Of a stretch of DNA of 37,094 bases, positions 638 to 33,779 are shown piece after piece. The notes beneath the pieces were generated by a model that was given only the letters and a program-made list of their open reading frames with translations, did no database searches and was not told the origin of the DNA. The translations under genes and the position numbers were made by a program. Position 1 is the first letter of the stretch, and every line of letters starts with the position of its first letter. This DNA comes from an uncultured Selenomonadaceae bacterium (lineage in GTDB: Bacteria; Bacillota; Negativicutes; Selenomonadales; Selenomonadaceae): assembly GCA_902777615.1 (NCBI GenBank), contig CACYUQ010000020.1, positions 1-37,094 on the forward strand. The letters run 5' to 3'.

Positions 638-674
638 AACATACCTCCTGATCAAACTCTGTATCAGCCTAAAA

Positions 675-741
675 ATTATAGTCCTATACAAAGCATATTG
701 CTGTCTAACTCTGGAAGCTTTGCACATTAATTGTTGACAAA
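675..741 (-). promoter_or_regulatory. Putative spoIIE promoter with Spo0A-box-like site
   Basis: A TATAAT -10 hexamer lies at 675-680 on the minus strand, about 40 bases before the spoIIE start. The best -35-like match (TAGACA, 702-707) is 21 bases away. That spacing is too long for a normal sigma A promoter but is the spacing known for Spo0A-activated spoIIE and spoIIG promoters of B. subtilis. Upstream at 733-741 is TTTGTCAAC, matching eight of nine positions of the 0A-box TTTGTCRAA. Assignment is inference. Confidence 0.45.
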
Positions 742-771
742 AAAAGACCGCTCCGATTATATCGAAGCGGT
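739..771 (-). terminator. Rho-independent terminator after divIC
   Basis: On the minus strand ACCGCT-T-CGAT / ATCG-G-AGCGGT forms an 11-bp stem with one G-U pair and a three-base loop (747-771), followed by a run of seven T. It lies 12 bases beyond the divIC stop and separates the yab-divIC operon from spoIIE. Confidence 0.85.
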
Positions 772-782
772 AATGCTATCAT

Positions 783-1094
783 TTATTCCTGCGGCTTAAT
801 CACAATCTCATCCGGATAAACAAGTCCAAGCTTATCCTTTGCCACATCTTCTATGTATTTGTTGGTCTGCATATACTGCTGCTGAGCATGAAGGACTTCA
901 TTTTCCTGCCTGGCAGCTTCAATCTTTTGCTCTAAAACAGTCTCGGCATAGGCAAGCTCCTTACCCTGAGCACGAAGTTCTTTAACTCTTAAAGCCGATA
1001 TGGTACAAACAAATATAACAGCAACCACAATAAGAAAACTTGTAAGTCTAGACTGTCTTCTTGTTGACTTTTTTCTTCCTTTCCTTTTGCTCAT
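783..1094 (-). CDS. divIC: Septum formation initiator, DivIC/FtsB family
   Basis: This is a 103-residue bitopic membrane protein of the division machinery. A very basic cytoplasmic tail (residues 1-16, rich in K and R) precedes one hydrophobic span (about 17-36), then an extracytoplasmic coiled coil (about 37-75, A/E/Q/L-rich heptads), then the family's short tail with KDKLGLVYPDE. DivIC pairs with FtsL and FtsQ/DivIB to activate septal peptidoglycan synthesis. The start at 1094 is preferred because an AGGGG site sits just before it; a longer frame back to 1142 would begin deep inside yabQ. Even so it overlaps the 3' end of yabQ by 47 bases, suggesting translational coupling. Position between yabQ and spoIIE matches the Bacillus order. 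Confidence 0.9.
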   Translation of the reverse strand: MSKRKGRKKSTRRQSRLTSFLIVVAVIFVCTISALRVKELRAQGKELAYAETVLEQKIEAARQENEVLHAQQQYMQTNKYIEDVAKDKLGLVYPDEIVIKPQE

Positions 1095-1542
1095 CTTTAC
1101 CCCTGCCGGATGATTGATATACATCCTTTTCCTTCTCATCATTTTTTAAATGTCTAAAAATAGATACTTTCATTTTATACCATTTTTCGCCATTTTTCAA
1201 CAATTTCTTAGGTTTTTCAACACACTTTTTCACAAAACACAAGATGTAGTTCAGCAAATTGAAAATGCCACTACTTATTGTGTTCTTATAAATCAAAATT
1301 CCGGTAATTGCAACGATAAAAATGTAAATTCTGAAGCTTCCATCATTATATTTGAAGATGTTTTCTATAAAAAGCCATGTAAAAAAAAGCCAATACACTA
1401 TATCCTCTAAACCGACAAGCATATCACCATGATTAAAGGTTTTTCTTATGCTTCGGAGCACATCATATACCGCTCCCATACATATCCCCATTATAAGACT
1501 TACAACAAACATATTTCCCTGGAGATAAATTATATAAAACAT
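1048..1542 (-). CDS. yabQ: Spore cortex biosynthesis protein YabQ
   Basis: The 164-residue product has hydrophobic spans near residues 10-27, 47-63 and 72-87 and a long lysine-rich cytoplasmic tail. The YDVLRSIRK motif after the first span is typical of YabQ, a membrane protein needed for spore cortex formation and placed in the outer forespore membrane. Length is near the family's norm apart from the extended basic tail. The ATG at 1542 directly follows the yabP stop; an internal ATG at 1512 has a better-spaced AGGGA site and may be the true start, removing ten residues. Expression in the mother cell under sigma E is expected from B. subtilis but cannot be read here. Confidence 0.85.
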   Translation of the reverse strand: MFYIIYLQGNMFVVSLIMGICMGAVYDVLRSIRKTFNHGDMLVGLEDIVYWLFFTWLFIENIFKYNDGSFRIYIFIVAITGILIYKNTISSGIFNLLNYILCFVKKCVEKPKKLLKNGEKWYKMKVSIFRHLKNDEKEKDVYQSSGRGKDEQKERKKKVNKKTV

Positions 1543-1827
1543 TTATTTAAACATTCTCCCCAGTATTCCTGCTGCTGTTTTTTTAACATTGTGATTTTCT
1601 GAGTAAACCATGCTGTCAATGGTTCCTGCCATCTCCAGCTCACCCTTATCAACATCAAGTCTTATAACGTGCAAATCATCACCTTTAATCGTAAGTACAC
1701 CTGCCTCAGTAACAAGCACCACCACATCGGTATCAAAGGATTCGACCCTGGTTATTCCATATATAGTAGCTTTTTTTCTATTATCTAAAGAAAGTCTGTG
1801 ATTTTTTGCATATTGAATTTCTCCCAT
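1543..1827 (-). CDS. yabP: Sporulation protein YabP
   Basis: This 94-residue protein belongs to the small YabP/YqfC family. It shows the pattern HRLSLDNRKKATIYGITRVESFD, then VVLVTEAGVLTIKGDDLHV, then LDVDKGELEMAG, a beta-rich soluble fold also shared with spore envelope proteins. YabP is required for spore cortex assembly in B. subtilis together with YabQ. The ATG at 1827 is chosen because a perfect GGAGG lies seven bases before it. A TTG at 1839 would add four residues but places the ribosome site inside the gene. The stop codon is immediately followed by the yabQ ATG, indicating one transcript. Confidence 0.88.
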   Translation of the reverse strand: MGEIQYAKNHRLSLDNRKKATIYGITRVESFDTDVVVLVTEAGVLTIKGDDLHVIRLDVDKGELEMAGTIDSMVYSENHNVKKTAAGILGRMFK

Positions 1828-1878
1828 ATAATCCTCCAATTCAGGGAACTTATATAGAATATAATATGCTTTTTTTAT

Positions 1879-2118
1879 TTAAAGTATGTTATACATTTCC
1901 TTGGCATCTTCTTTTTTGGTTGTCTCGGTTATCCGTGTCACCTCAGCCTTAACGGTTTTATTGCCGAAACCAATCTCGATTATATCACCTATCTTTACAT
2001 CATATGAAGCCTTTACAACCTTTCCGTTTACGGAGACTCTTCCGGCATCACAGGCTTCATTGGCAACGGTACGTCTCTTTATAAGTCTTGAAACCTTTAA
2101 ATATTTATCCAGTCTCAT
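1879..2118 (-). CDS. rqcP: S4-domain RNA-binding protein YabO/RqcP (Hsp15 family)
   Basis: The 79-residue protein is essentially one S4 RNA-binding domain: MRLDKYLKVSRLIKRRTVANEACDAG, then GRVSVNGKVVKASYDVKIGDIIEI. In B. subtilis this gene (yabO) was renamed rqcP: the protein binds stalled 50S subunits with RqcH and supports alanine tailing in ribosome-associated quality control. An AGAGGTG site precedes the ATG. It is the first gene of the yabO-yabP-yabQ-divIC run, with 51 bases to yabP. A long hairpin lies upstream, before HU. Confidence 0.9.
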   Translation of the reverse strand: MRLDKYLKVSRLIKRRTVANEACDAGRVSVNGKVVKASYDVKIGDIIEIGFGNKTVKAEVTRITETTKKEDAKEMYNIL

Positions 2119-2152
2119 ATTAACACCTCTTTCTAAACCTTATGGATATTCG

Positions 2153-2196
2153 CCGAATGACAATATTTTCGTGCAAGCACGAATATTGTCGCTCGG
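2153..2196. repeat. Long imperfect palindrome between HU and rqcP
   Basis: The arms CCGAATGACAATATT and AATATTGTCGCTCGG, with a TCGTGC/GCACGA inner stem and a two-base loop, form a hairpin of about 20 bp with a small bulge and G-U pairs. No T-run follows on either strand, so it is not a typical terminator. It lies in the 5' region of rqcP and could be a processing site, an RNA structure or a genomic repeat unit. Confidence 0.55.
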
Positions 2197-2277
2197 ATCA
2201 TTATCTACAATCGAGTAAAGGAAAAACCGTCCCCTGCCCGATTCGATAATGATATCCACATCTCGCAACTATCTACA

Positions 2278-2312
2278 CAAAAAGGTCATCATACAAACGC
2301 ATGATGACCTTT
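2278..2312 (-). terminator. Rho-independent terminator after HU gene
   Basis: On the minus strand AAAGGTCATCAT and ATGATGACCTTT form a perfect 12-bp stem around an eight-base loop, followed by a short T-run. It lies 23 bases after the HU stop codon. Confidence 0.85.
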
Positions 2313-2334
2313 ACACAACTTTATTATCTGCTAA

Positions 2335-2607
2335 TTAGTTTACGGAATCCTTTAAAGCCTTACCAGCCTTGAACTTAGGAGCCTTAGAAGCCTTAATCTT
2401 CATAGTAGCGCCGGTTCTAGGATTTCTACCCTCTCTTGCAGGTCTCTCAGCTACTTCAAATGTACCAAATCCAACTAACTGGATCTTGTCACCCTTCTTT
2501 AACTGCTCTGCAACTGTATCAGTGAAAGCCTTAAGTGCCTTCTCAGCCTCAGTCTTCTTTAAACCAGTCTTCTCTGCAATGCTTGCAACTAATTCGTTCT
2601 TGTTCAT
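2335..2607 (-). CDS. hup: DNA-binding protein HU
   Basis: The 90-residue product is a full-length HU: MNKNELVASIAEKTGLKKTEA helix-turn-helix dimer core, GDKIQLVGFGTFEV, and the DNA-binding arm with ERPAREGRNPRTG (about residues 53-65), ending KFKAGKALKDSVN. It is a nucleoid protein that binds and bends DNA without sequence specificity as a dimer. The start at 2607 is chosen because AGGAGG lies about ten bases before it and the family always begins MNK; the frame extends further back only as non-homologous sequence. It has its own strong promoter and terminator, so it is monocistronic. HU between spoVT and yabO is the usual clostridial arrangement. Confidence 0.96.
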   Translation of the reverse strand: MNKNELVASIAEKTGLKKTEAEKALKAFTDTVAEQLKKGDKIQLVGFGTFEVAERPAREGRNPRTGATMKIKASKAPKFKAGKALKDSVN

Positions 2608-2699
2608 TTTAATAATTCCTCCTATAAATACAAACGTTGATTGTTTTTTACAATCCCCTATTGTTCGTGGCATACGTTTTAACAAATGCCCTACGCATA

Positions 2700-2728
2700 T
2701 TTATACATTGTTAGAGCCGATTTGTCAA
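2700..2728 (-). promoter_or_regulatory. Sigma A promoter of HU gene
   Basis: The -35 TTGACA (2723-2728) and -10 TATAAA (2700-2705) are separated by exactly 17 bases on the minus strand, leaving a leader of about 85 bases before the HU start. Confidence 0.85.
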
Positions 2729-2786
2729 GTACATTGATACCAAAAAACGTCCTTTTTTTGCAGTTTTTAGCAAAAACACTATTTTT

Positions 2787-3335
2787 TTAACCTTCCATCT
2801 GTTTTCCAAGGAATTTTGCTGCTATCACTGCTGCCTTTTGCTCTGCTTCACCGATATTTACTCCGTCGTCCTTACTTAAAAGTATAACTGCACCTATAGC
2901 ATCGCCCTCACTTATAATAGTCTGAACTATCTCTCCGGAGTACTCATTATCGCCATTTCCGAGGATTTTTATAAACTTCTTTTCACCTTTTCTCGCAAGA
3001 ATCGCTTCCCTGTCATTTATAGCCTCTTCCAAGTCCTTATGGAGACTTTTACCCAGCAGTTCTTTTTTGGGTATACCTGCCACTGCTATAATCTGATCCC
3101 TGTCACATACGCACACGCCACAGCCAAGTATCTGAGCAGCAGCCTCCACATACTCCTGCGCAAAACTTGAAAGCTCACCTATCGGGGAATATTTTTTTAA
3201 AATAATTTCTCCGTCCTTATCAGTAAAAATCTCAATCGGGTCACCTTCACGGATTCGTAAAACCCTTCTAATCTCCTTTGGAACTACTATACGTCCAAGC
3301 TCATCTATTCTACGAATAATACCTGTTGCTTTCAT
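2787..3335 (-). CDS. spoVT: Stage V sporulation protein T, transcription regulator
   Basis: The 182 residues match SpoVT in length and layout. The N-terminal AbrB-type swapped-hairpin DNA-binding domain (about 1-50) reads MKATGIIRRIDELGRIVVPKEIRRVLRIREGDPIEIF; the C-terminal GAF-like domain (about 56-180) includes GCGVCVCDRDQIIAVAGIPKKELLGK. SpoVT is a forespore regulator that adjusts sigma G-dependent genes late in sporulation. An AAGGAG site lies about nine bases before the ATG. Its place beside the yab cluster is conserved from Bacillus to Clostridia and strongly implies an endospore-forming host for this half of the window. Confidence 0.95.
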   Translation of the reverse strand: MKATGIIRRIDELGRIVVPKEIRRVLRIREGDPIEIFTDKDGEIILKKYSPIGELSSFAQEYVEAAAQILGCGVCVCDRDQIIAVAGIPKKELLGKSLHKDLEEAINDREAILARKGEKKFIKILGNGDNEYSGEIVQTIISEGDAIGAVILLSKDDGVNIGEAEQKAAVIAAKFLGKQMEG

Positions 3336-3418
3336 ATCTACAAATCTCCTTACATTTACATTAGTCTGTTTCTATTATCTGTAAATTAAGGATTTTTATA
3401 CATATATTTTATTATTTT

Positions 3419-5524
3419 TTATTGCATTACATTTATCTGATAACTATTTCCCTGAGTATCCCAGATATTATATACATAAACTTTTTCAATATCAGGATCT
3501 ATATCTACCATATCAACCGTCAAATCTCCATCCAGATAAAAGCCATAAAATAATCCCGAATAATTTTTCCATTCTTCAAACGGCTTCACGGTACCATCAT
3601 CATTGAACTCGATAATTCTTCCAAAGGAATACGGTTCTATATAGCAACCCTGTTCAAGCACAACGCTGTTTTTGGGTAAAAGAGAATTGGTATCTTCATC
3701 TTCAAGCGGATAGATACCGGTTATTACTCCTCCCGGATTTTCCGCATCAATTCTTATGTGCAAATTATACGGAACATAATATCTGTCCGGATCAAATTCA
3801 CCATTATCATCCATAAAGCTCACAACTATAGGTGCTTTATAAACTGCATAGCCATCGCCTCTTTCTATCTCAAATGCGCAGCAATCAGCTTCATTTCCCG
3901 ATGAGTCCCTTAGTACGATACGCTTGTTAAGGATACCCGAAGAGAGTACATTATCAGAAGAAAGATAGACATCTGAGGAATCGATCCAAAGACCATATCC
4001 ACCATCATCATAGTTCTCATATATCTCCCAGATTTCAAGACTGGCTCCGGCAAAATTTGCTACCTGTTCATCTGTGAGTTGTATAGAAAAGCTTCCCATA
4101 CTTCCTATATTTCCAACTTCGTATTCACTTGCAGTTGCTCCGGTTACACCACCATCCGGTTCTTCCGATGCTATTTCAACAACCGCATCCTCGCCGTCTA
4201 AATCCCATACGGTAAGCGGTGCACCATAAAATGTCTCCGTAAAATTTTTCACAAACTGCATATAAGTCTGACTAAATCCACTTAAGCTATACTCATCTAC
4301 CCATTCTTCAGCATACATCTTGTTGTTATATGGGAAATAAACTGCCAATCCGTGTGCATTTTCAACATTGGTCTTAGAATAAACAACCATTTCTTCCAAT
4401 GCATTTTTAAGTGCCGAAGCCTCAGCGGCATGGGTTTCAGACATATTTTCCGCAAGATTATAAACATATACAGTATCATAGCAAAGTTCCTCATCAATTA
4501 TTCCAAATGCCTTAGTATTGCCTCTTTGTCTGGCTATATTGGAGTACTCTCCATTTATAAGATCATTTTCCGTAACCGATATAAGCGAATTAAAGCTGTT
4601 CATTACATCTTCTGTTTTTGATAAATCAAGACAGGCTAATGTATACTCCGGCTTGTACCAGATATAGGAATCATAATAGCTCGCATATGTATCAATTATG
4701 GCTGTTCCTGCCGCAACTCCCGAAAAATCAGTTCCGTCAGCTATTTTATTAACAAATTTATAATCCCAGCCATCGCCCGGTATAACTTCCTCCGATGCAA
4801 TAAGATAGTTCGTATATGGTTCAAACAATTCAGCTATCTCTATCATACCCATAAGGCAGGCATCAAATCCAACCCATTCAAACTTCTTACCTTCCGTCAT
4901 CATATGGGCAGTCGAAAACGCCTGATCCATCTCGCTCATAGTAAGCGTATCATAGTCATATCTTTCATCTCCTCCGTAACCAAGCACGGCACCACCACCA
5001 TGATTCCACAAAACAAGGCTGTAGTAATTGGCCTCATAATTGTCATACGCATAATCAAGAAACTCCGTAAGGGTGAGCGGGTCAGCCATATTGTCACCCT
5101 GAAGAACATTTAATTTATTAATCTTGTCAGTTCCTGAGTTTACTTCATATATAGCCACTTCATCTGCTGAGATGTCATCATTCCACCAGTAGTTGGAACC
5201 TCCGGTACAAATAAGTATCCTGACATTCTCATTGTCAAATCCGCTTTTTTGCATTTCCTCAATATCAAGGCTCGCAAGTCCCGCTTCGGATTCAAGATTC
5301 GAACCGACCATATAAACAAGCATAAGCTCACTCGCCTCGCCGGTTGCTACCATCAGATTATTAAAATTATTGTCATATTCCTCTTTTAGCTTTAACCTGT
5401 CAGAATAATTATTTGCAAATTTTCTTTTTGTATCCTTGGTATCTCCGTAACCTGAATTGCCACACGCCGCCAATGATAAGCCAAGAACTATAGCTGTAAT
5501 TAACGCCCCTATTCTTTTTTTCAT
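3419..5524 (-). CDS. Clostripain-family (C11) cysteine peptidase lipoprotein
   Basis: The 701-residue product begins with a lipoprotein signal (MKKRIGALITAIVLGLSLAAC, lipid cysteine C21), so it is predicted to be anchored outside the membrane. Residues about 65-440 match the C11 peptidase fold: VYMVGSNLES near the start, the catalytic histidine in LVLWNHGGG (H175), and the catalytic cysteine in FDACLMGM (C223). C11 enzymes such as clostripain cleave after arginine or lysine. About 260 further residues (442-701), rich in D, E, Y and G, form a beta-type extension of unknown role, perhaps binding or an inhibitory domain. An AGGAG site precedes the start. Substrate is unknown. The gene stands alone, divergent from the asparaginase gene. 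Confidence 0.88.
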   Translation of the reverse strand: MKKRIGALITAIVLGLSLAACGNSGYGDTKDTKRKFANNYSDRLKLKEEYDNNFNNLMVATGEASELMLVYMVGSNLESEAGLASLDIEEMQKSGFDNENVRILICTGGSNYWWNDDISADEVAIYEVNSGTDKINKLNVLQGDNMADPLTLTEFLDYAYDNYEANYYSLVLWNHGGGAVLGYGGDERYDYDTLTMSEMDQAFSTAHMMTEGKKFEWVGFDACLMGMIEIAELFEPYTNYLIASEEVIPGDGWDYKFVNKIADGTDFSGVAAGTAIIDTYASYYDSYIWYKPEYTLACLDLSKTEDVMNSFNSLISVTENDLINGEYSNIARQRGNTKAFGIIDEELCYDTVYVYNLAENMSETHAAEASALKNALEEMVVYSKTNVENAHGLAVYFPYNNKMYAEEWVDEYSLSGFSQTYMQFVKNFTETFYGAPLTVWDLDGEDAVVEIASEEPDGGVTGATASEYEVGNIGSMGSFSIQLTDEQVANFAGASLEIWEIYENYDDGGYGLWIDSSDVYLSSDNVLSSGILNKRIVLRDSSGNEADCCAFEIERGDGYAVYKAPIVVSFMDDNGEFDPDRYYVPYNLHIRIDAENPGGVITGIYPLEDEDTNSLLPKNSVVLEQGCYIEPYSFGRIIEFNDDGTVKPFEEWKNYSGLFYGFYLDGDLTVDMVDIDPDIEKVYVYNIWDTQGNSYQINVMQ

Positions 5525-5565
5525 ACGCTTTTCTCCTGTTACAATGATTTTATAGTTAATATTCT

Positions 5566-5586
5566 TAACATCCGGTTAAGATGTTA
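5566..5586. repeat. Inverted repeat upstream of C11 peptidase gene
   Basis: TAACATC and GATGTTA form a 7-bp inverted repeat with a seven-base spacer, 42 bases upstream of the peptidase start, beside AT-rich sequence that could hold the promoter. An operator or a leader hairpin are both possible. Confidence 0.4.
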
Positions 5587-5690
5587 TCTATCTATTTTAT
5601 CCCGGATTAAGCAAATTCCAAATTTCGTATCATAAAACCTTTATAAAAATTATATAAGATTTTGCTTAATATTGAAATAGTTATTTTTAA

Positions 5691-5718
5691 TTGATTTAAT
5701 GGGCAAATTATATATAAT
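5691..5718 (+). promoter_or_regulatory. Putative promoter of asparaginase gene
   Basis: TTGATT (5691-5696) and TATAAT (5713-5718) are spaced by 16 bases, 32 bases upstream of the asparaginase ATG. The surrounding DNA is very AT-rich, so chance matches are likely. Confidence 0.5.
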
Positions 5719-5750
5719 GATATTATACTATAAAATCAGGAGAATAATAA

Positions 5751-6668
5751 ATGACTAAAATACTTGTTATCCTTACAGGCGGTACAATCGGCTCATCCTC
5801 AGACGGCCGATACATATCCGTCAATTCGGATTCAAAAAAATATAAAATTATAGAAATGTACAGGAAAGCATTTTCCGATGCTGCTTATGATATCAAATTT
5901 GACACTTGTGAACCTTATACTATTTTAAGCGAAAATTTAAATGGAAAGTATATTAATAAACTAATCAAATGTTTAAATGAAAATTTGAATAAAGATTACA
6001 GTGGGATAATAATAACCCATGGAACCGATACTCTCCAGTACACTGCAGCTGCTCTCGGAATTATTTTTTCCAATATAAGTATTCCCATACTAATGGTTTC
6101 AAGTAATTATATACTTGAAGATGAAAGGGCAAACGGCCTTGATAATTTTTCTCAGGCGGTCAGCTATATCAAGTCCGGAAAAAATCCCGGTATATATGTT
6201 GCATATGATAAAACCATATATAGCGGATTAAATCTGCTCCCTCATATGGCTTATTCAGATAAACTATATCAGCTCGAAGCAAATTCGTCTTCACATGATA
6301 GTTTAATGCATAATATAAAACACACATTGGATAACTATACAGATTTTACCGGGATATCTTTGTCAGATAACTCACCGGTACAATATATAAGAGCCGTTCC
6401 CGGACAGATTTACCCTGACCTTTCTGAAACTGATGCAAAAGCAATTCTTATGGAAACCTATCACTCAGGCACACTTAGTACCGACAGTAAAGAGTTTCGT
6501 GATTTCTGTCACAGGGCAAAAACGTTTAATATCCCTATATATATAGTCGGTATGGAGGATAGGCTTCAGTACGAAAGTACCTCTTTATATGAAAATCTGG
6601 GACTTAAAACACTTGAAAAAATATCCCCTGTGACAGCTTATATGATGCTTTGGATCAAATATAGTTAA
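5751..6668 (+). CDS. Asparaginase (L-asparaginase/glutaminase family)
   Basis: The 305-residue protein has the two signature motifs of bacterial-type asparaginases: TGGTIG at residues 9-14 with the nucleophile threonine T12, and THGTDT at 89-94 with the second threonine-aspartate pair. It hydrolyses asparagine to aspartate and ammonia. No signal peptide is present, so it is predicted to be cytoplasmic. It is somewhat shorter than E. coli AnsA or AnsB (about 330-350), and the C-terminal domain is divergent (AVPGQIYPDL; KTFNIPIYIVGMEDR). Related amidases such as the Glu-tRNA(Gln) amidotransferase subunit GatD share these motifs, but a GatE partner is not adjacent. An AGGAGA ribosome site lies eight bases before the ATG. 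It is the only plus-strand gene in the left section. Confidence 0.85.
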   Translation: MTKILVILTGGTIGSSSDGRYISVNSDSKKYKIIEMYRKAFSDAAYDIKFDTCEPYTILSENLNGKYINKLIKCLNENLNKDYSGIIITHGTDTLQYTAAALGIIFSNISIPILMVSSNYILEDERANGLDNFSQAVSYIKSGKNPGIYVAYDKTIYSGLNLLPHMAYSDKLYQLEANSSSHDSLMHNIKHTLDNYTDFTGISLSDNSPVQYIRAVPGQIYPDLSETDAKAILMETYHSGTLSTDSKEFRDFCHRAKTFNIPIYIVGMEDRLQYESTSLYENLGLKTLEKISPVTAYMMLWIKYS

Positions 6669-6699
6669 ACAGATACAATCATATTATTATAACGCAATC

Positions 6700-6727
6700 G
6701 AGTAGGGAAGATGTAATCACCCTACTC
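6700..6727 (+). terminator. Hairpin after asparaginase gene
   Basis: GAGTAGGG and CCCTACTC form an 8-bp stem around 12 bases, 31 bases past the stop. No T-run follows, so this is a weak or atypical terminator. Confidence 0.4.
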
Positions 6728-6785
6728 GTGCGCGAGCCGCCAGGTAGCTTCAGCCGGCACATTCCTTTCGTCGGCTCTGTGCATT

Positions 6786-7583
6786 TTAAAGGAGCGTAAG
6801 ATATCTACGCTCCTTTTGCCTCACAATTATTATTTTTTTAAGCTTAAGCTGTTTTTTAAACTCTCCGCTTTTTATATCATCTATTCTTTGTTGTATAAGC
6901 CCCTTAACCATATCGCTTATCTCTTTTTTCTTCATGTGCCCATATTCTTCGTAGTATATAGGTTCAAGGAAATGAACCTGAGTAGTCACCGGTCTTATGG
7001 TATTGATATCCATAGATTTCCATGAATCATATAAAACAACCGGAATAATCGGTGTCTTTGATTTTAACGAGCATGTAAAACATCCATGTTTAAATTCCTG
7101 AAGGTTGTTTTTGTTGTTAGTATATCCTCCCTCAGGGAATATAAGATATCTTCTGCCATCGGCCACTTCTTCGGCTATCTCATTTAAGACCTTTATCTGC
7201 TGTCTCGGATTGTCAAACTCAATAGTCTTGGCACGCAGCAGTCCGCATATCTGTCTTGCCAAAAGTCTGTCTGCGGATTTGGCTTCCCATAAAACCGCAC
7301 ATGTAGGCTTATGCTTTATGAGTATACCCAAAGCATCATACTTTCCCTGATGATTTGAATACATTATATATCCACCCTCTTTGGGTAAATTATCCAATCC
7401 ATAACATTTTGTTCTGGTCATAGCTTTTAGCTTCATATGACGCATTATTTTAACAGCACGTCTGTGGCACACCTCTTCCGAATACTTTTCCGGGTGTCTG
7501 ATCATGTAATTGGACTTCGGAATACTTCCAAAACCATATATCAGGCTGGAAGCTACTACAAACTTAAATTTCAACTGTTTCAT
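6786..7583 (-). CDS. 1-acyl-sn-glycerol-3-phosphate acyltransferase (PlsC family)
   Basis: The 265-residue protein carries the acyltransferase block I as NHQGKYD, with H78 and D83 in the HX4D arrangement, and block III as FPEGGYT (149-155). These enzymes transfer an acyl chain to lysophosphatidic acid to make phosphatidic acid at the inner membrane face. The N-terminus (about residues 8-20) is moderately hydrophobic, and the C-terminus is lysine-rich with the last codons encoded inside a terminator hairpin. It lies 29 bases after corA on the same strand, possibly on one transcript. The exact acceptor cannot be told from sequence. Confidence 0.87.
   Translation of the reverse strand: MKQLKFKFVVASSLIYGFGSIPKSNYMIRHPEKYSEEVCHRRAVKIMRHMKLKAMTRTKCYGLDNLPKEGGYIMYSNHQGKYDALGILIKHKPTCAVLWEAKSADRLLARQICGLLRAKTIEFDNPRQQIKVLNEIAEEVADGRRYLIFPEGGYTNNKNNLQEFKHGCFTCSLKSKTPIIPVVLYDSWKSMDINTIRPVTTQVHFLEPIYYEEYGHMKKKEISDMVKGLIQQRIDDIKSGEFKKQLKLKKIIIVRQKERRYLTLL
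6787..6817 (-). terminator. Terminator overlapping the 3' end of the acyltransferase gene
   Basis: AAAGGAGCGTA and TACGCTCCTTT form a perfect 11-bp stem around a seven-base loop; the minus-strand version runs into the stop codon and a T-rich stretch. It may serve both strands, since the asparaginase gene converges on it. Confidence 0.7.
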
Positions 7584-7612
7584 AATATCACCATTTATCC
7601 TGTTCTAACAAA

Positions 7613-8554
7613 TCACAACATCTTCTTTTTTCTTAAAACCCACATTACAATAAAGCAAATAAGTGCCGTAATACCGCATATTATATAAAAGCCATAAGGT
7701 GTACTTGAAAGCGGCATCCATCTTCCAGCAACATTCATTCCGTACAAACCGGATATGATAGTAGGTATAGACATGACAATCGTTATCGCAGCAAGGTATT
7801 TCATCATATTGTTAAGACGGTTGTCAATAACTGTCGACATAAGTTCCCTTGTACCTTTTATGATGTCACGGTAAATCTGTGTCATCTCTATAGCCTGTAG
7901 ATTTTCGACAATCACATCATCTAAAAGTTCATGATCCTCCGGAAATTTCTTTATACCACTGTATCTGGTCAATCTGTCTACAATCATACGGTTAGCACGA
8001 AGAGATGTATCAAAGTATACAAGGTTGGATTCAAGCTCGTGTAAGATTATGATATCCGAATCCTCCATAACTCCACCCATCTTTTCTTCCATTTCAAGAC
8101 GCTTTCTGTCAATAACCCTAAGGTATGACTGATACAGCATGCTGGTACGGTAAAGAATCTGATAAGTAAATCTTACCTTCTTTTTGGTGGTAAAATCCTT
8201 AAGCTTATTCATTATAAAATGCTTTATAACCGGAGTCTCAACAGAGCATATGGTTATAATTGAATCATCTGTCCATATAATACCAAGAGGTATAGTAGTA
8301 TATGCTTCCTGATTATGACGTATCTCAACTGTCGGGATGTCAAATATTACAAGCACATAATTGTCATTGATATCCACACGTGAAGATTCTTCTTCGTCAA
8401 GAGCTGCTCTTATATCCGGCAAATCTATATCGTAGTGTTTGGATATTTCGATACTTTCCTCCTGAGTGGGGGCTGTAAGATTAATCCACATACCATTTTC
8501 ATAATCTTCAATTTCTCTAAATTTACCATCATCAGTTATATATCTGCTAATCAT
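7613..8554 (-). CDS. corA: CorA-family divalent cation transporter
   Basis: The 313-residue protein has the CorA plan: an N-terminal acidic alpha/beta cytoplasmic domain, a long helical region (about 120-245), then two C-terminal membrane spans (about 250-270 and 285-305). The first span ends in the YGMN signature at 271-274, the selectivity filter for hydrated magnesium or cobalt in CorA pentamers. The C-terminus is RKKKML. The sequence resembles the Firmicute CorA-like branch. A GGGGGG site precedes the ATG. It is followed by the acyltransferase gene. Confidence 0.92.
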   Translation of the reverse strand: MISRYITDDGKFREIEDYENGMWINLTAPTQEESIEISKHYDIDLPDIRAALDEEESSRVDINDNYVLVIFDIPTVEIRHNQEAYTTIPLGIIWTDDSIITICSVETPVIKHFIMNKLKDFTTKKKVRFTYQILYRTSMLYQSYLRVIDRKRLEMEEKMGGVMEDSDIIILHELESNLVYFDTSLRANRMIVDRLTRYSGIKKFPEDHELLDDVIVENLQAIEMTQIYRDIIKGTRELMSTVIDNRLNNMMKYLAAITIVMSIPTIISGLYGMNVAGRWMPLSSTPYGFYIICGITALICFIVMWVLRKKKML

Positions 8555-8700
8555 GGTGCATCCCCCCGTTTTTTATATTTGATATGGTTATTGCGACATA
8601 ATCAACCGCCAAACAACCTCATAATATATGATAACACAAATTTGCTTTATTTGTATACTTTTTTGAGGGTATTTTAAATAATATTTTTACTTTTTTTAGA

Positions 8701-8910
8701 TTATTTTATACCTGTAACCTTATAATCCTGATCCTCGACAGCTTTCTTTAAGACATCATCAGATACTTCCTTTGAAAATGTAACAACTGCCTCATTTTTC
8801 TCATGGCTTGGTAAAGCCTCAGTTACTCCGTCTATCGCTTCAAGCGCTTTTTTTACTCTTGCCTCACAATGAGCACACATCATTCCTTCGATAGTCATTG
8901 TTTTCTGCAT
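8701..8910 (-). CDS. Possible CopZ-like chaperone from internal start in copA
   Basis: In frame with copA, an ATG at 8910 is preceded by AAAGGAGG at eight bases' distance, as good a ribosome site as any in the window. Translation from it would give a free 69-residue heavy-metal domain starting [15 protein letters not shown], the size and fold of the copper chaperone CopZ. The linker before it is hydrophilic and poorly conserved. This suggests copA mRNA yields both the pump and a chaperone, or that a separate copZ was fused to copA. E. coli is known to make a CopA-derived chaperone, but by frameshifting at the 5' end. Internal initiation here is inference. Confidence 0.5.
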
Positions 8911-11436
8911 ATTATTTTCCTCCTTTATTTCATTATTATATAATTTATCTTCGCTTATTATCTTACTTTTTGTTTCCTGATTTATAACTTTTTCATCATA
9001 TGGATTATTTTTAATCTTTTTCAGATTTAGTCTGAGTGCATTTGTCACCACACATACACTTGACATACTCATGGCCGCAGCTCCAAACATCGGATTTAAA
9101 AGCCAGCCAAACAAAGGATACCACACACCGGCAGCAAGTGGAATACCGATGATATTATAGAAAAATGCCCAAAACAGGTTTTCATGTATATTTTTTATAG
9201 TCGCTTTACTTAGCCTTACTGCTGCCGTCACATCACTTAGCTCATTTTTCATCAAAACAACATCGGCAGAATCTATAGCTATGTCCGTTCCTGAACCGAT
9301 TGCAATACCTACATCTGCCTGTGTAAGTGCCGGTGCATCATTTATACCGTCACCGACCATAATGACCTTCTTGCCCTGATTGATATAATCAAGTACAACC
9401 TTAGCCTTGCTTTCCGGCATAACCTCTGCAATTATCTCATCAACTCCGGCTTTTTTGCCTATAGCATCAGCAGTCTTTTTGTTATCTCCCGTAACCATAA
9501 CGACAGTTTTGCCCATAGACTTTAATTCATTTATAGCAGATATGCTGTCATCTTTTAAAACATCCGCAACTGCAATTATTCCAAGCAGCTTATCCCCATC
9601 ACAAAACAGCATCGGAGTTTTACCCTCAGAAGAAAGTTCATCTAACTTTTTGATGACATCGTTACTTAACTTTATCTTGTCCGATATATATCTGCGATTT
9701 CCGGCGTATATATCTTTCCCGGCTATTTTGCCACTTAGTCCGTTGCCTGCGTGGTTTTCAAATTCTTCAATCTCTATATCATTTAAAACAAATGTCCCCT
9801 GATCAGATTTTGAGCCGCCTTTTGAAGCTTCATTTGAATCTGCCTTTTTATCTGCTTTAGAATCGTCCGGATTCTCGCAATAAGAAACTATCGCTTTAGC
9901 AAGCGGATGCTCACTCTTTTTCTCTAAGGCATAGGCCTTTTCTATGAGTAATCTCTTATCATCATTTATATAGCCACCACTTTTATCAATACTTTTATCA
10001 ATTATTTTATTATTATAACTATCGCTTCCGGCTATTTCAGTCTTTACTGTTAATTCAGATAATGAAATCACATCCGTTACAACCGGTATGCCCTTAGTTA
10101 TAGTTCCTGTCTTGTCAAGAAGTATCACATCCGCCTTACCGGCATTTTCAAGTGCAGTTGCATTTTTAAATAAGATGCCGTTTTTAGCTCCCAGACCACT
10201 TCCGACCATAATTGCAACAGGTGTAGCGAGTCCGAGTGCACAAGGGCAGCTTATAACCAACACCGAAACCGCTCTTGCCAGTGAAAAACCAACTTCGTAT
10301 CCGGCTATAGTCCAGACTATATATGTTATAAGCGCGATGCCTATAACTATCGGTACAAATACTCCGGAAACTTTATCTGCAATTTTGGCAATCGGTGCTT
10401 TGGTAGCTGCTGCATCACTGACCATCCTTATTATCTGGGACAGGGTTGTATCCTCGCCAACTTTTTTTGCCTCGCATGTTACAAAACCTGAAAGGTTGAT
10501 CGTCGCGGTCTTAACCTCATTTCCAACCTCTTTATCAACCGGTATACTCTCGCCGGTTAAGGCACTTTCGTCTATACTTGTACTACCCGATACAATCCTT
10601 CCATCAACCGGAATTCTCTCACCCGGTCTTACGACAAATGTATCTCCTACCATTACCTCATTGGCAGAAATCGTTACCTCTTTGCCGTCCCGTAAAACCG
10701 TCGCAGTATCCGGCGCAAGCTTCATAAGACCTTTTATGGCATCCGTAGTTCTTCCCTTCGAATATGCTTCAAGCATTTTTCCAAGTGTAATAAGCACCAG
10801 TATCATCGCCGCAGACTCAAAATAAAGCTCATCCATATAATGCTCTACGGCAGTCATATCTCCACTAACCTGCGCATCCGTCATGGCAAAAAGCGCACAC
10901 ATGCTGTATATAAACGAAGCTCCCGAACCAAGTGCAACAAGGCTGTCCATATTGGGCGCAAGATGTCTGAAGCCTTTAAATCCACTTATAAAAAACTTCT
11001 GATTGATAACCATTATAATAACTGCCAAAAGAAGCTGTATAAGCCCCATAGCCACATGATTTCCATCAAAAAATGCCGGCAGTGGAAATCCAAACATCAT
11101 ATGTCCCATCGAAAGATACATCAGCACGGCAAGGAACCCAAGCGACGCGACAAGCCGCCGCAACAGCGCAGGCGTCTCCCGATCCTCCAAAAGCGAAGCA
11201 TCCGCCGACGCATCGCCGCCCGCGTCTTTCGTCGCCTCACCCTTGACCGCCGCGCCATACCCCGCATCCTCCACGGCGGCAATCACCGCCAACGGATCGG
11301 CGGTTCCCTCGACCCCCATAGAATTCGTCAAAAGGCTAACCGCACAATTTTCCACACCCTCGACCTTTTTCACGGCCTTCTCCACGCGAGCGACGCAAGC
11401 CGCACAACTCATTCCCGTGACTGTATATTGCTTCAT
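8701..11436 (-). CDS. copA: Copper-translocating P1B-type ATPase with N- and C-terminal metal-binding domains
   Basis: The 911-residue pump exports copper(I). Order: N-terminal heavy-metal domain with GMSCAAC (8-14); eight membrane spans from about residue 93; actuator TGES (294-297); CPC in span six (397-399); phosphorylation site DKTGT (441-445); HP dipeptide (510-511); GDGIND hinge (695-700); and a second heavy-metal domain (843-911) with GMMCAHC at the very C-terminus. A charged low-complexity insert (about 521-548) enlarges the nucleotide domain. The start at 11436 has AGAGGTG nearby; a longer frame to 11466 is less likely. Base and codon use change abruptly near residues 100-110 (about 11,105-11,135): codons before are GC-rich like the DNA to the right, those after are AT-rich like the DNA to the left. 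Confidence 0.93.
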
Positions 11437-11488
11437 CGATTCACCTCTTTTATAAAACATGAACAAAATACCCTATCGTTTTCATATA

Positions 11489-11517
11489 TTTATATCGCCA
11501 CATAGATTATTTGTCAA
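11489..11517 (-). promoter_or_regulatory. Promoter of copA
   Basis: TTGACA (11512-11517) and TATAAA (11489-11494) are spaced by exactly 17 bases on the minus strand, about 53 bases upstream of the copA ATG. It lies on the GC-rich side of the composition break. Confidence 0.8.
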
Positions 11518-11530
11518 TCGTCTCTTTTCT

Positions 11531-11574
11531 TGCAACTACTATCGGTTGCATTTCCCCTTTCTCCATGGTATAAT
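11531..11574 (+). promoter_or_regulatory. hicAB promoter with operator-like inverted repeat
   Basis: TTGCAT (11546-11551) and TATAAT (11569-11574) are spaced by 17 bases, 23 bases before the hicA GTG. The inverted repeat TGCAAC (11531-11536) / GTTGCA (11545-11550) overlaps the -35, a good place for a HicB autorepressor site. Confidence 0.75.
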
Positions 11575-11597
11575 TTACGAGAAAGAGAGGCGTTACT

Positions 11598-11849
11598 GTG
11601 GGGCAAAAAGAAAAGCTACTACGCAGGTTAAAAGCCAATCCCAAAGATTTTACTTTTGAGGAAGCCGAAACATTGCTTGGCTACTTGGGATACCAACAAT
11701 CAAACAAAGGGAAAACCAGCGGCTCACGCTCCATGTTCACGAACGGGCATCAGAAACTATTGCTGCATAAGCCACATCCCCGAAAAGAGCTCTTGACGTA
11801 CCAAGTCAAACAACTGATTGAACAACTCGAACAGGAGGGATTGCTGTGA
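11598..11849 (+). CDS. hicA: HicA-family toxin (mRNA interferase)
   Basis: The 83-residue protein has the double-stranded RNA-binding-like HicA fold: KLLRRLKANPKDFTFEEAETLLGYLGY, then KTSGSRSMFTNGHQKLLLHKPHP, in which the histidines after the GS turn correspond to the catalytic region, and a C-terminal helix with LTYQVKQLIEQLEQEGLL. HicA toxins cut mRNA and are neutralised by HicB. It starts with GTG, seven bases after GAGAGG. Its stop overlaps the start of hicB by four bases, the usual toxin-first order for this family. Confidence 0.9.
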   Translation: MGQKEKLLRRLKANPKDFTFEEAETLLGYLGYQQSNKGKTSGSRSMFTNGHQKLLLHKPHPRKELLTYQVKQLIEQLEQEGLL

Positions 11850-12193
11850 ACAATGTCATGGAATATAAAGGCTATATCGGCAGCGTCGAATTTTCCGAAC
11901 CCGATGGTCTCTTCTTCGGAAAAGTGCAGGGAATCCGCTCTCTCATTTCGTATGAAGGTTCAACAGCCGCAGAATTGGTCGCCGATTTTCACGGCGCCGT
12001 CGATGATTACCTGGCGCTCTGCGAAGAAGAAGGAACGAAGCCTGAAATCGCCTATAAAGGAAGCCTCAATGTCCGTTTCAAAAAACGCGATACGCACCGA
12101 AGGGCGGCCATCTATGCCATCACTCACGAGCAAAGTTTAAACAGTTTTATTGAGGAAGCCGTAGAGGAAAAACTTGCTACGGTCACCAGATAA
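11846..12193 (+). CDS. hicB: HicB-family antitoxin
   Basis: The 115-residue protein pairs a partial RNase H-like HicB domain (MEYKGYIGSVEFSEPDGLFFGKVQGI, then STAAELVADFHGAVDDYLALCEEEG) with a C-terminal ribbon-helix-helix DNA-binding segment (GSLNVRFKKRDTHRRAAIYAITHEQSLNSFIEEAV). This is the long form of HicB that both neutralises HicA and represses its own operon. The GTG at 11846 has GGAGGG six bases upstream and lies within the end of hicA; a nearby in-frame ATG four codons on is an alternative. A strong terminator follows at once, so the operon contains only these two genes. Confidence 0.9.
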   Translation: MNNVMEYKGYIGSVEFSEPDGLFFGKVQGIRSLISYEGSTAAELVADFHGAVDDYLALCEEEGTKPEIAYKGSLNVRFKKRDTHRRAAIYAITHEQSLNSFIEEAVEEKLATVTR

Positions 12194-12216
12194 AACCGCT
12201 CGATTGTCTGGACACC

Positions 12217-12250
12217 AAACGCCACCAAGCTCTCGCTTGGTGGCGTTTTT
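12217..12250 (+). terminator. Terminator of hicAB
   Basis: AAACGCCACCAAGC and GCTTGGTGGCGTTT form a perfect 14-bp stem with a TCTC loop and end in five T, 23 bases after the hicB stop. Confidence 0.93.
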
Positions 12251-12490
12251 CACTGTAAATGCATATTGTATCAGAAATGACTCCTATCACACCAACATAA
12301 AGTAGTCATATGATAGTTTTATTTAATAATCCTCGCAGTGCCCATTTAAATGGTAACAATAACGACCGCATCCTTTCATAACAGGGAATGCAAGTCCGGG
12401 TTAACAGACTTATATACGATATAATCCTTTTTTCATTAGTATTTGTTCATAACTATCCCACAAATTGCTATTAATTGGAAAGGTTAATGT
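12251..12490. other. Gene-free AT-rich stretch
   Basis: No convincing reading frame, RNA or strong promoter was seen. It is more AT-rich than the flanks and separates hicAB from a degraded segment. It is probably relic DNA of the island. Confidence 0.5.
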
Positions 12491-12497
12491 TGTTAGC

Positions 12498-12586
12498 GTC
12501 GGGCGATTTTAGCCATATCGGGTCGGGCGATTTTAACCAAATTTAGTCGGAAGATTTTAGCCAATCGAGATTGAACAATAATAGCC
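12498..12586. repeat. Four 24-bp direct repeats, IS-end-like
   Basis: The 17-base core GTCGGGCGATTTTAGCC recurs with an exact 24-base period at 12498, 12522 and 12546, with one to two changes; a fourth, strongly decayed copy sits at 12570. Multiple terminal direct repeats of about this size are typical of IS21-family ends, but no transposase is present. Plasmid-style iterons are a less likely alternative. Confidence 0.65.
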
Positions 12587-12988: not shown

Positions 12989-14098
12989 TCATTGCAATTT
13001 CGCCATATTGCGGCGCTTCATTTCCATCGTCGGATGCACATAACGGTTGAAGGTGATATTCACATTGGAATGTCCCAAAATGACGCTTAGGCATTTTGCA
13101 TCAAAGCCCGCCTCTACGCATCGCGTGGCAAAGGTGTGGCGCAACGCATGGAAATTCGCATCCGCGATGCCACATTCTTCCAGCACTCCCTTGAACCGGT
13201 TCTGCATTGTCCGAGGCTCGATGAAACGCTCTTGTTCTCCAGTCAAAAGAAACGTCCCACTGCGATAAAACGGCCGCAAGCTGGAGCAAATCTTGTCCGG
13301 CAAAGGAATCGTCCGTATGGAACAATCACTCTTCGGGGATGTGATGACAATTTTCGTCCGTGTCTGTGCATTCGCCGCTTCCCGGATTCTCTGCATCGTC
13401 CGATGGATATGAAGCTGCTTGCTCGACAGACAAATATCGTCCCAGCGCAGGGCACAAAGCTCCCCTAGACGAATGCCGGTAAAAAGGCAAAGCAGAATCC
13501 CTTTATGCCAAGGCATCAATGCAGCGCTCAGATATGACCGCAGTCGCTCCTGTTCCTGCTCGCTGAAAATCCGGATTGGCTTTTCTTTCTGTTTCATGCA
13601 CAACCCATCCAAAGAAAAGTTGACGGCACATCCTTGCCGGGCGGCATATTTTTGAAGGATTTTCAAAATACAGCGAACCTCGGATACCGTCCGCGCGGAA
13701 AGTCCTTTGCATCCTGTTCCACCTTCCGTAAGCAACATACGGAAAAAAGAAGAAACACTTTCCGTGGACAACTCTCCCACAGAAATCTCCCCAAACTTCG
13801 GCAAAATGTAGCAGGATAAATAATCCCTGTACTTTGCGATGGTGGATTCCTTCAAGAAGGATTTTGAGTCCTCCAACCACCTTTCGCTGACGGCGTTCAA
13901 CGTTGCGTTTTTCTGCGCCATTGCTTCACAGCCCGTTTTCCACATCTTTTTTGCTGTCGTCAACTTTTTCTTTGCGGCGGTGTATGTGGCTGCAAAGACA
14001 TATCCAAACGCTGTTTTTCCGTGCGTGCGTCCCTTGACGTATCTCCCCTCCCAACGTCCGTCTTTCCTTTTGTAAATATTGTCGCCTTGTTTTGACAT
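12989..14098 (-). CDS. Tyrosine site-specific integrase (phage/ICE type)
   Basis: The 369-residue recombinase has an N-terminal AP2-like arm-binding region (GDNIYKRKDGRWEGRY), a SAM-like core-binding domain (about 65-160), and a catalytic domain with all expected residues: R210 in FTGIRLGEL, K256 in TSPKSD, H317 and R320 in HALRH, H343 in LGHSNV, and the nucleophile Y353 in NRYVHP. It cuts and rejoins DNA at attachment sites to integrate or excise a mobile element. GGAGG lies before the start. No excisionase, relaxase or phage genes accompany it, so the element is reduced to a remnant. No tRNA is adjacent to serve as an obvious attachment site. Confidence 0.94.
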   Translation of the reverse strand: MSKQGDNIYKRKDGRWEGRYVKGRTHGKTAFGYVFAATYTAAKKKLTTAKKMWKTGCEAMAQKNATLNAVSERWLEDSKSFLKESTIAKYRDYLSCYILPKFGEISVGELSTESVSSFFRMLLTEGGTGCKGLSARTVSEVRCILKILQKYAARQGCAVNFSLDGLCMKQKEKPIRIFSEQEQERLRSYLSAALMPWHKGILLCLFTGIRLGELCALRWDDICLSSKQLHIHRTMQRIREAANAQTRTKIVITSPKSDCSIRTIPLPDKICSSLRPFYRSGTFLLTGEQERFIEPRTMQNRFKGVLEECGIADANFHALRHTFATRCVEAGFDAKCLSVILGHSNVNITFNRYVHPTMEMKRRNMAKLQ

Positions 14099-32208: not shown

Positions 32209-33012
32209 ATGCATCAATTTCTTTTCTATATCGGCGACTTCCCGATTCGCGCCTACGGACTTGTTTTGAGCCTGTCCATCGTGTTGGCCACCGGCGTTGC
32301 CTATTTCCTCGCGAAGCAGGACGGGCGGTGGCACGGCCATATCGCCGACATGGGTATTTACTGTGGGCTGGCAGGCATTCTCGGCTCGCGGCTTTGGGAC
32401 GTATTTTTCTTCGACTGGGACTACTACCGCGACCATCTGACGGAAATCCTGAACGTCTGGCAGGGCGGCATGGCAATCCAGGGCGGCATCGTGCTTGGCG
32501 CCATTGTCGGCATCCTCTACACGAAGCGGCACGGCATCGACAGTTGGGCGATGGCGGACATCGTCTGCCCCGCCGTGATCCTCGGTCAAGCTCTGGGACG
32601 CTGTGCGAACCTTTTGAACGGCGACGCCTTCGGCGCGCCGACGGGCGGCGACTTTGGCATCCTCTACCCGTCCACCACCCTCGCCTATCGGACATACGGC
32701 AGCCAACCGCTTTGGCCCGCCGAAATCTGGGAAGGTCAGCTTGACATGGCGATTTTCGCGCTGCTGCTGATGTACCGTACTACCGCCCACGCGAAAGGAC
32801 AGGCATTTTCTCTGTATGTCATCCTGTATTCGACAGCTCGTTTTTTCCTCGAATATTTCCGCGGCGATTACACCGATCCGGTGCTGGGGCTGTTTACCTC
32901 GGCGCAGACCACCAGCCTCGCCGCCGTCCTCCTCGGCGCCGCCGCTTGGGTATGGTTCGGCGTCCGGGAAAAACGGGAGAAAAAATCCGCCCCGCCGCCT
33001 GTCAGTCATTGA
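32209..33012 (+). CDS. lgt: Prolipoprotein diacylglyceryl transferase
   Basis: The 267-residue membrane enzyme transfers diacylglycerol from phosphatidylglycerol to the lipobox cysteine of prolipoproteins. About seven spans are visible, with IRAYGLVLSLSI near the start, WQGGMAIQGG at 84-93, and LGQALGRCANLLNGDAFG (126-142), the Lgt signature with arginine R131 and asparagine N134. STARFFLEYFRGD contains the conserved R and E of the last loop. At the place where E. coli has H103 in HGG this protein has Q91, a deviation seen directly. GGAGG precedes the ATG. A SpeD-like gene and tRNA-Pro follow on the same strand. Confidence 0.94.
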   Translation: MHQFLFYIGDFPIRAYGLVLSLSIVLATGVAYFLAKQDGRWHGHIADMGIYCGLAGILGSRLWDVFFFDWDYYRDHLTEILNVWQGGMAIQGGIVLGAIVGILYTKRHGIDSWAMADIVCPAVILGQALGRCANLLNGDAFGAPTGGDFGILYPSTTLAYRTYGSQPLWPAEIWEGQLDMAIFALLLMYRTTAHAKGQAFSLYVILYSTARFFLEYFRGDYTDPVLGLFTSAQTTSLAAVLLGAAAWVWFGVREKREKKSAPPPVSH

Positions 33013-33076
33013 CACGGCTCCGCGTTCCCGCTTATAATGTTCTCAGAAGAAGAAAACCTCAAGGAGTAATGTGCTT

Positions 33077-33538
33077 ATGGACAAGATTATCGCCCGCCAC
33101 CTGACGGCAGATTTGTACGGATGCAAGGCAAGCTGTCTGATCGATGAAGACAGTCTGCCCATAAAAGTTTCCTCACTGTTCGAGGAGCACGGGTTCCACA
33201 TCCTGTCCTCCACGGTGCAGGATGTCGACGAGAATCATGCGGCGCTTTTGATGCTTTTCGCCGAGGGGCATTTTGCCATCCATTTGTACAAAAACCTTTC
33301 CTATGTCGCCGCCGACTTGTTCCTCTGCGAATTCGCCGCCGCACCGGAAGACCTCCTGCAAAAAATCAAGAACATCTTCAAGCCGGAAAAATTCCGCACG
33401 ACCTATCTGAAGCGCGGCGATTTCAGCGTCAGCGGCGCGGACATGAAGCCCCAGACGACGACGCGCGTCGCACCGCTCCGCCGCATCCACAACACCGGCG
33501 CAAAGGTCATTCGGTTGCTCGCGCACCGCAAACACTAA
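33077..33538 (+). CDS. SpeD-like S-adenosylmethionine decarboxylase homologue lacking the pyruvoyl serine
   Basis: The 153-residue protein is clearly SpeD-like: HLTADLYGC, the block AEGHFAIHLYKNLSYVAADLFLC, and KFRTTYLKRGDF. In active bacterial SpeD the block reads ESHxSxHT; self-cleavage between E and S turns that serine into the pyruvoyl group. Here the serine is glycine (G64, numbering from the ATG at 33077), while the later catalytic histidine (H69) and cysteine (C84) are kept. Without the serine, pyruvoyl formation is not possible by the known route. It may be an inactive partner, a regulator or a protein with a new job. AAGGAG supports the start at 33077; GTG at 33071 is an alternative. 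No speE is nearby. Confidence 0.82.
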   Translation: MDKIIARHLTADLYGCKASCLIDEDSLPIKVSSLFEEHGFHILSSTVQDVDENHAALLMLFAEGHFAIHLYKNLSYVAADLFLCEFAAAPEDLLQKIKNIFKPEKFRTTYLKRGDFSVSGADMKPQTTTRVAPLRRIHNTGAKVIRLLAHRKH

Positions 33539-33606: not shown

Positions 33607-33683
33607 CGGGATGTGGCGCAGTTTGGTAGCGCGCATCGTTCGGGACGATGAGGCCGCAGGTTCGAACCCTGTCATCCCGACCA
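33607..33683 (+). tRNA. tRNA-Pro (anticodon CGG)
   Basis: 77-nt cloverleaf: acceptor CGGGATG/CATCCCG with the C1-G72 pair typical of bacterial tRNA-Pro, D-stem GCGC/GCGC, anticodon stem CATCG/CGATG with loop TTCGGGA, T-stem GCAGG/CCTGT with TTCGAAC, and encoded ACCA. All stems pair apart from a G-U in the T-stem. Confidence 0.97.
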
Positions 33684-33725: not shown

Positions 33726-33746
33726 TTGCCCGAAAGCACATATAAA

Positions 33747-33769
33747 AGCCCCGGCTTTTCGCCGGGGCT
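33747..33769 (-). terminator. Terminator after NADH dehydrogenase gene
   Basis: AGCCCCGGC and GCCGGGGCT pair over 9 bp with a five-base loop; the minus strand continues TTTTAT and the plus strand CATTTTTTC, so it may act both ways. Confidence 0.85.
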
Positions 33770-33779
33770 TCATTTTTTC

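Follow-up and report, generated by a model that had tools for sequence, protein, structure and literature searches.

Several proteins of the AdoMetDC/SpeD superfamily serve as references for the gene described here, which lies in a stretch of 37,094 nucleotides from an uncultured Selenomonadaceae bacterium (the window). The class-1b SpeD of T. maritima (structures 1tlu and 1vr7, and 1tmi for the non-processing S63A mutant) has the same fold as the window protein and shares H68 and C83 with it; the window protein differs in having a glycine for S63, in the replacement of F49, S55 and E72, and in about 35 extra basic residues at its C-terminus. The E. coli-type class-1a SpeD (e.g. locus L119 in genome G007) belongs to the same superfamily and many genomes carry both proteins, but class-1a SpeD comprises about 260–280 aa and its gene, unlike the window gene, shares a polyamine operon with speE and a decarboxylase gene.

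The closest precedents are the neofunctionalised SpeD decarboxylases and a degraded SpeD domain (both PMC10407285), as well as the trypanosome prozyme (PMC5201418). The first group consists of arginine and ornithine decarboxylases derived from SpeD, homologues which occur in the absence of speE or next to another SpeD and have acquired a new role; however, these enzymes keep the cleaved serine and its pyruvoyl group (PMC10407285), which the Gly types of the family described below cannot form. The degraded domain, located at the C-terminus of a fusion protein of Victivallis vadensis, is likewise bacterial and has lost both active-site residues and self-cleavage (PMC10407285), but it is fused to a working SpeD, whereas the tailed protein reported here is free-standing, single-copy and class-wide. 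The AdoMetDC prozyme of Trypanosoma brucei (PMC5201418, PMC6221367) is an AdoMetDC-fold pseudoenzyme that has lost its pyruvoyl site together with other residues of the active site; it activates a catalytic paralogue, while the tailed protein, with its conserved basic extension, persists in genomes devoid of one.

A SpeD homologue with glycine at the cleavage site

The window gene (33077..33538, + strand) was identified as encoding a SpeD-like pseudoenzyme by means of Pfam, phmmer, AlphaFold2 and PDB fold matches. Its frame is open from the ATG at 33077 through the stop codon at 33538 and specifies 153 aa. The product is a class-1b AdoMetDC/SpeD homologue by descent and fold. Residues 8–114 matched Pfam AdoMet_dc with 69.3 bits (cut-off 25), in keeping with membership of the superfamily, and the NCBIfam equivalog model for functional SpeD, TIGR03330, returned 62 bits, below its own cut-off of 75.65. 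The AlphaFold2 model reached a mean pLDDT of 84.5 and found its best PDB matches in T. maritima SpeD (1vr7/1tlu), with Z scores of 15.5–16.0 over 117 residues; the match extended over residues 2–119 with an rmsd of 2.1–2.2 and 24% identity. A Z of about 16 to T. maritima SpeD bears out the original prediction that the overall fold is kept.

Alignment with T. maritima SpeD, the check which that prediction had called for, was obtained by phmmer against 1tlu (E 2e-7) and set E63-G64 of the query opposite the self-cleaving E62-S63. The two residues are encoded by GAG (33263–33265) and GGG (33266–33268) on the + strand (33263..33268), so that the proposed replacement of E-S by E-G stands at the level of codons and alignment alike. 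With glycine in place of the pyruvoyl-forming serine the usual serine-derived cofactor cannot form, as had been anticipated, and Ser, Thr and Cys are all absent within three residues of the cleavage site in the window protein. Sequencing error or a mutation confined to a single genome was ruled out, since glycine occupies this position in all 84 Gly-type relatives; the residue defines the type, whose members are mostly Selenomonadaceae and include every Selenomonadaceae member examined.

The claim that the active site had been retained held only in part. The catalytic pair of functional SpeD is present as H69 (33281..33283, + strand; H68 in T. maritima) and C84 (33326..33328, + strand; C83 in T. 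maritima), each of them retained in 76 of the 84 Gly-type relatives. On the other hand, F49 and E72, which we take to be SAM contacts, have become V50 and N73, and S55, presumably a processing residue, has become A56. Across the Gly types these and other positions are retained to very different extents (S55 in 5/84, E72 in 19/84, P71 in 30/84 and E62 in 55/84), D79 being present in 84/84. The retention of H68 and C83 exceeds the requirements of a pure scaffold and hints at a pocket that still matters.

The tailed family in the Negativicutes

The window protein is one member of a class-wide family, not visible from the window alone, whose proteins combine a SpeD core with a basic C-terminal extension. 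The original prediction was right about the missing serine, though its picture did not include the wide occurrence of serine-less proteins within a family whose defining feature is a conserved basic tail. In the window protein, which has both parts, the conserved basic C-terminal region comprises residues 103–153 (33383..33535, + strand), carries a net charge of +9 and contains the motif TTxLKRGDF...MKP...VAPLRRIHNTGAKVIRLLA; the portion past the canonical SpeD core corresponds to residues 121–153 (33437–33535, + strand). The extension measures about 35 residues in the family, and the best-conserved C-terminal stretch reads KPxKxKTTxLKRGDFGxxxDMKPKxKTxVAPLRRIHNTGAKVIRxLARR. Pairwise identity amounts to 0.64 in the tail vs 0.38 in the core, and the median charge is about +12 in the former and −4 in the latter. 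All 84 Gly types share T109, R113, G114 and P125 (window numbering), and 83 of them retain P103, K105 and R135. In the AlphaFold2 model the tail was predicted with modest confidence, its pLDDT lying mostly between 58 and 74. The tail alone gave no match in Pfam and matched no known binding motif, and searching its profile against the PDB produced two weak matches, both to parts of repetitive proteins and with no single stretch above 8.4 bits, which we read as chance; a known domain was thus ruled out.

The distribution of the family was assessed with a tail-only profile of 23 rows (profile A2), to which the tail of the window protein, itself one of those rows, matched with an E value of 9.9e-31; relatives that are not part of the profile were matched as well. 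In a sample of 150 Negativicutes genomes, each at least 95% complete, the profile found the protein in 147, in single copy, with a second partial match in one genome. The only three genomes without a tail match (G050, G416 and G444, family f15) are likewise without any Pfam AdoMet_dc match. In a sample of 299 genomes of the phylum, 10 were matched, all of them Negativicutes, and the tailed protein was not detected outside this class. A search of genome contigs yielded 63 related loci, every one of them belonging to Selenomonadaceae or their close kin, and genome searches found homologues in most relatives. Our literature search, whose coverage excluded most subscription journals, returned no prior report of the tailed family or of a bacterial SpeD pseudoenzyme.

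The gene is under purifying selection, which is strongest in the basic tail. Between the window gene and its nearest relatives dN/dS was 0.09–0.12. Calculated by the simple NG86 method, with values that climb with divergence, the median omega was 0.15 for the tail vs 0.27 for the core, close pairs falling mostly at 0.01–0.12 and showing almost no replacement changes in the tail. Both these ratios and the near-universality of the gene in the class rule out a pseudogene. In-frame stops that were noticed in six tail matches of family f143 proved to be ordinary ends of shorter tails.

In a broader set of tailed proteins, site 63 was occupied by Gly in 47 members and by Ser in 31; Cys occurred in 3, Phe in 2, and Thr, His, Ala and Val once each. 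The tree, in which long branches leave some placements unsure, requires at least seven changes between Ser and non-Ser and 11 residue changes; such a count alone does not separate loss of the serine from its gain, and the canonical outgroup has Ser. The cysteine occurs at the pyruvoyl-serine position of the tailed proteins L165, L170 and L176. In one genome (G038) a canonical class-1b SpeD that lacks the tail occurs alongside a tailed copy of Ser type (L002, L115).

Polyamine genes, neighbourhood and promoter

Twelve near-complete genomes contain the tailed protein as their sole Pfam AdoMet_dc match, the protein being of non-Ser type in all 12; several of these genomes also lack speE. A separate SpeD was present in each of the 15 Ser-type genomes scored. 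Absence of another SpeD therefore amounts to 0/15 Ser-type vs 12/40 non-Ser genomes, but these counts cluster by phylogeny, and significance is out of reach for a sign test on independent pairs, for which reason we do not claim a link between serine loss and the absence of other SpeD. Two of the genomes with no other SpeD, G018 and G025, contain a cluster of CASDH/CASDC type, as judged by gene resemblance. A speE homologue occurs in apparent ADC-speE-(speB)-CASDH-CASDC clusters at L117 (G018), L118 (G025) and L121 (G050), and these three genomes thus have an aminopropyltransferase homologue with no obvious source of decarboxylated SAM, class-1a and Ser-type SpeD matches being absent.

In many other Selenomonadaceae genomes a class-1a SpeD coexists with the tailed protein. 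Most relatives of the same genus carry both speE and class-1a speD elsewhere in the genome, and in one of them the class-1a gene, speE and a gene for an Orn/Lys/Arg-type decarboxylase form an operon. In the bin of the window itself, which is 92% complete, neither speE nor class-1a speD was found, an absence that may be an assembly gap. The search for an intact speD in the same genome, which had been advised at the outset, thus came out empty for the bin and positive for most of its congeners. For the same reasons, the missing speE does not support the non-polyamine job that had been deduced from it; such a role is better supported by the genomes which lack both genes and by the locations of the tailed gene away from polyamine genes. 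In the neighbourhoods examined, comprising dozens of loci, the tailed gene never adjoined a polyamine gene.

The window gene does lie, as originally described, between lgt and a tRNA gene. The prolipoprotein diacylglyceryl transferase gene lgt (32209..33012, + strand; PF01790, 196.7 bits) is its upstream neighbour, and tRNA-Pro(CGG) (33607..33683, + strand) follows on the 3' side, as it does in L035, L039/L105, L098 and L100. Directly upstream and on the same strand, lgt was found in 29 of the 89 loci with sufficient upstream sequence. The commonest locus over the class is nevertheless another, since in 28 of the 47 loci sampled the gene is near, and usually divergent from, ctsR-mcsA-mcsB-clpC-radA, named by sequence resemblance (the adjoining ctsR of G368 was confirmed by Pfam), and in many Selenomonadaceae it has moved behind lgt. 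Between lgt and the window gene there is a predicted sigma-A-type promoter, TTGACA-18-TATAAT (33009..33038, + strand), with a 12/12 consensus match; the search returned four candidates, against 1.0 expected in shuffled sequence, and this was the sole 12/12. Matches of at least 11/12 were located no more than 110 nt upstream of the start in 54 of 96 relatives, which suggests strong expression from the gene's own near-consensus predicted promoter. An intrinsic-terminator-like stem-loop (33746..33770, + strand) after the tRNA matches the consensus, the region's total being near chance. Elsewhere in the window, positions 1–12500 approximately have a GC content of about 0.37 vs 0.53–0.61 for the remainder and look different in gene content, and an integrase-like ORF (12989–14098) lies near the junction, pointing to an integrated element or a chimeric contig.

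Possible functions and their significance

A role other than decarboxylation, as the original prediction proposed, is likely; the protein probably performs a conserved job different from that of SpeD and apparently an important one. We are inclined to regard it, with reasonable though far from complete assurance, as a pseudoenzyme in which the tail carries the conserved function and the core is an AdoMetDC-fold scaffold. Class-1b SpeD is dimeric, and the core would accordingly be a folded, probably dimeric scaffold, perhaps with a degenerate ligand pocket. The basic tail would perform the conserved work by binding either a polyanion (RNA, ribosome or nucleoid) or a partner protein; judging from its charge and conservation, polyanion or partner binding is probably its most likely mode of action. 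The protein is probably well expressed from its own promoter. Decarboxylation may have become dispensable because spermidine is covered by a separate class-1a SpeD or by a SpeD-independent CASDH/CASDC route, and the function of the tail would have been retained as many lineages lost the serine in parallel.

A less probable, though still appreciable, alternative is that the protein works as a ligand sensor, its degenerate pocket binding SAM, decarboxylated SAM or a di- or polyamine and thereby controlling the tail. The retention of H68 and C83 in 76/84 and of D79 in every Gly-type member is consistent with it, as are the stimulation of eukaryotic AdoMetDC by putrescine (PMC5201418) and the presence of cadaverine and putrescine in Negativicutes peptidoglycan (PMC10628300). 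However, the window protein lacks F49, S55 and E72, positions that are relaxed across the family, and the tail is better conserved than the pocket region. The loss of these other active-site residues makes ordinary SAM binding doubtful, and the SAM-binding protein initially suggested thus finds no support.

The occurrence of diamines in the cell wall also raises the idea, which we regard as improbable, that the tailed protein is the missing factor for cadaverine- and putrescine-decorated peptidoglycan, for instance a polyamine-sensing regulator or an accessory to diamine attachment. The restriction to the class, the near-universality and the descent from a polyamine enzyme would all fit, but neither the basic tail nor the absent linkage to envelope-polyamine genes specifically indicates it.

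It is likewise improbable that the protein acts as a regulatory partner of a true SpeD in the manner of the T. brucei prozyme, the other role put forward in the original prediction. The prozyme is indeed a serine-less AdoMetDC paralogue, and a class-1a SpeD stands alongside the tailed protein in many Selenomonadaceae genomes; yet the two genes are not linked, and the serine-less protein is found alone in the 12 near-complete genomes described above, rather than only together with a catalytic paralogue. As it persists without any other SpeD, it is not an obligate partner of SpeD, and the regulatory role is not supported.

Continued activity as a SAM, arginine or ornithine decarboxylase, by way of another cofactor or a shifted serine, seems very unlikely. 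Arginine and ornithine decarboxylases have arisen from SpeD homologues repeatedly (PMC10407285), and a minority of tailed members have Ser, or Cys, at the site, but the neofunctionalised enzymes use a serine-derived pyruvoyl, whereas the window protein has no nearby Ser, Thr or Cys and has lost S55 too. A decaying relic heading for loss, with no present function, could be argued from the disappearance of the serine along with several other residues of the active site, but it is hardly credible against a dN/dS of 0.09–0.12, a single copy in 147/150 genomes, and a conserved tail and promoter.

The tailed protein adds to the known pseudoenzymes of the AdoMetDC fold, among which it is distinctive in being class-wide, single-copy and strongly conserved. 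Automatic annotation is likely to label the gene as a SAM decarboxylase, a label that would misdirect pathway reconstructions for Negativicutes of the rumen, gut and oral cavity. The family also provides a natural series for the study of pseudoenzyme evolution, with at least seven changes at the catalytic serine against a background of constancy in another part of the protein. With its purifying selection and strong predicted promoter, the tailed gene seems to be a hallmark of the Negativicutes that is present in single copy.
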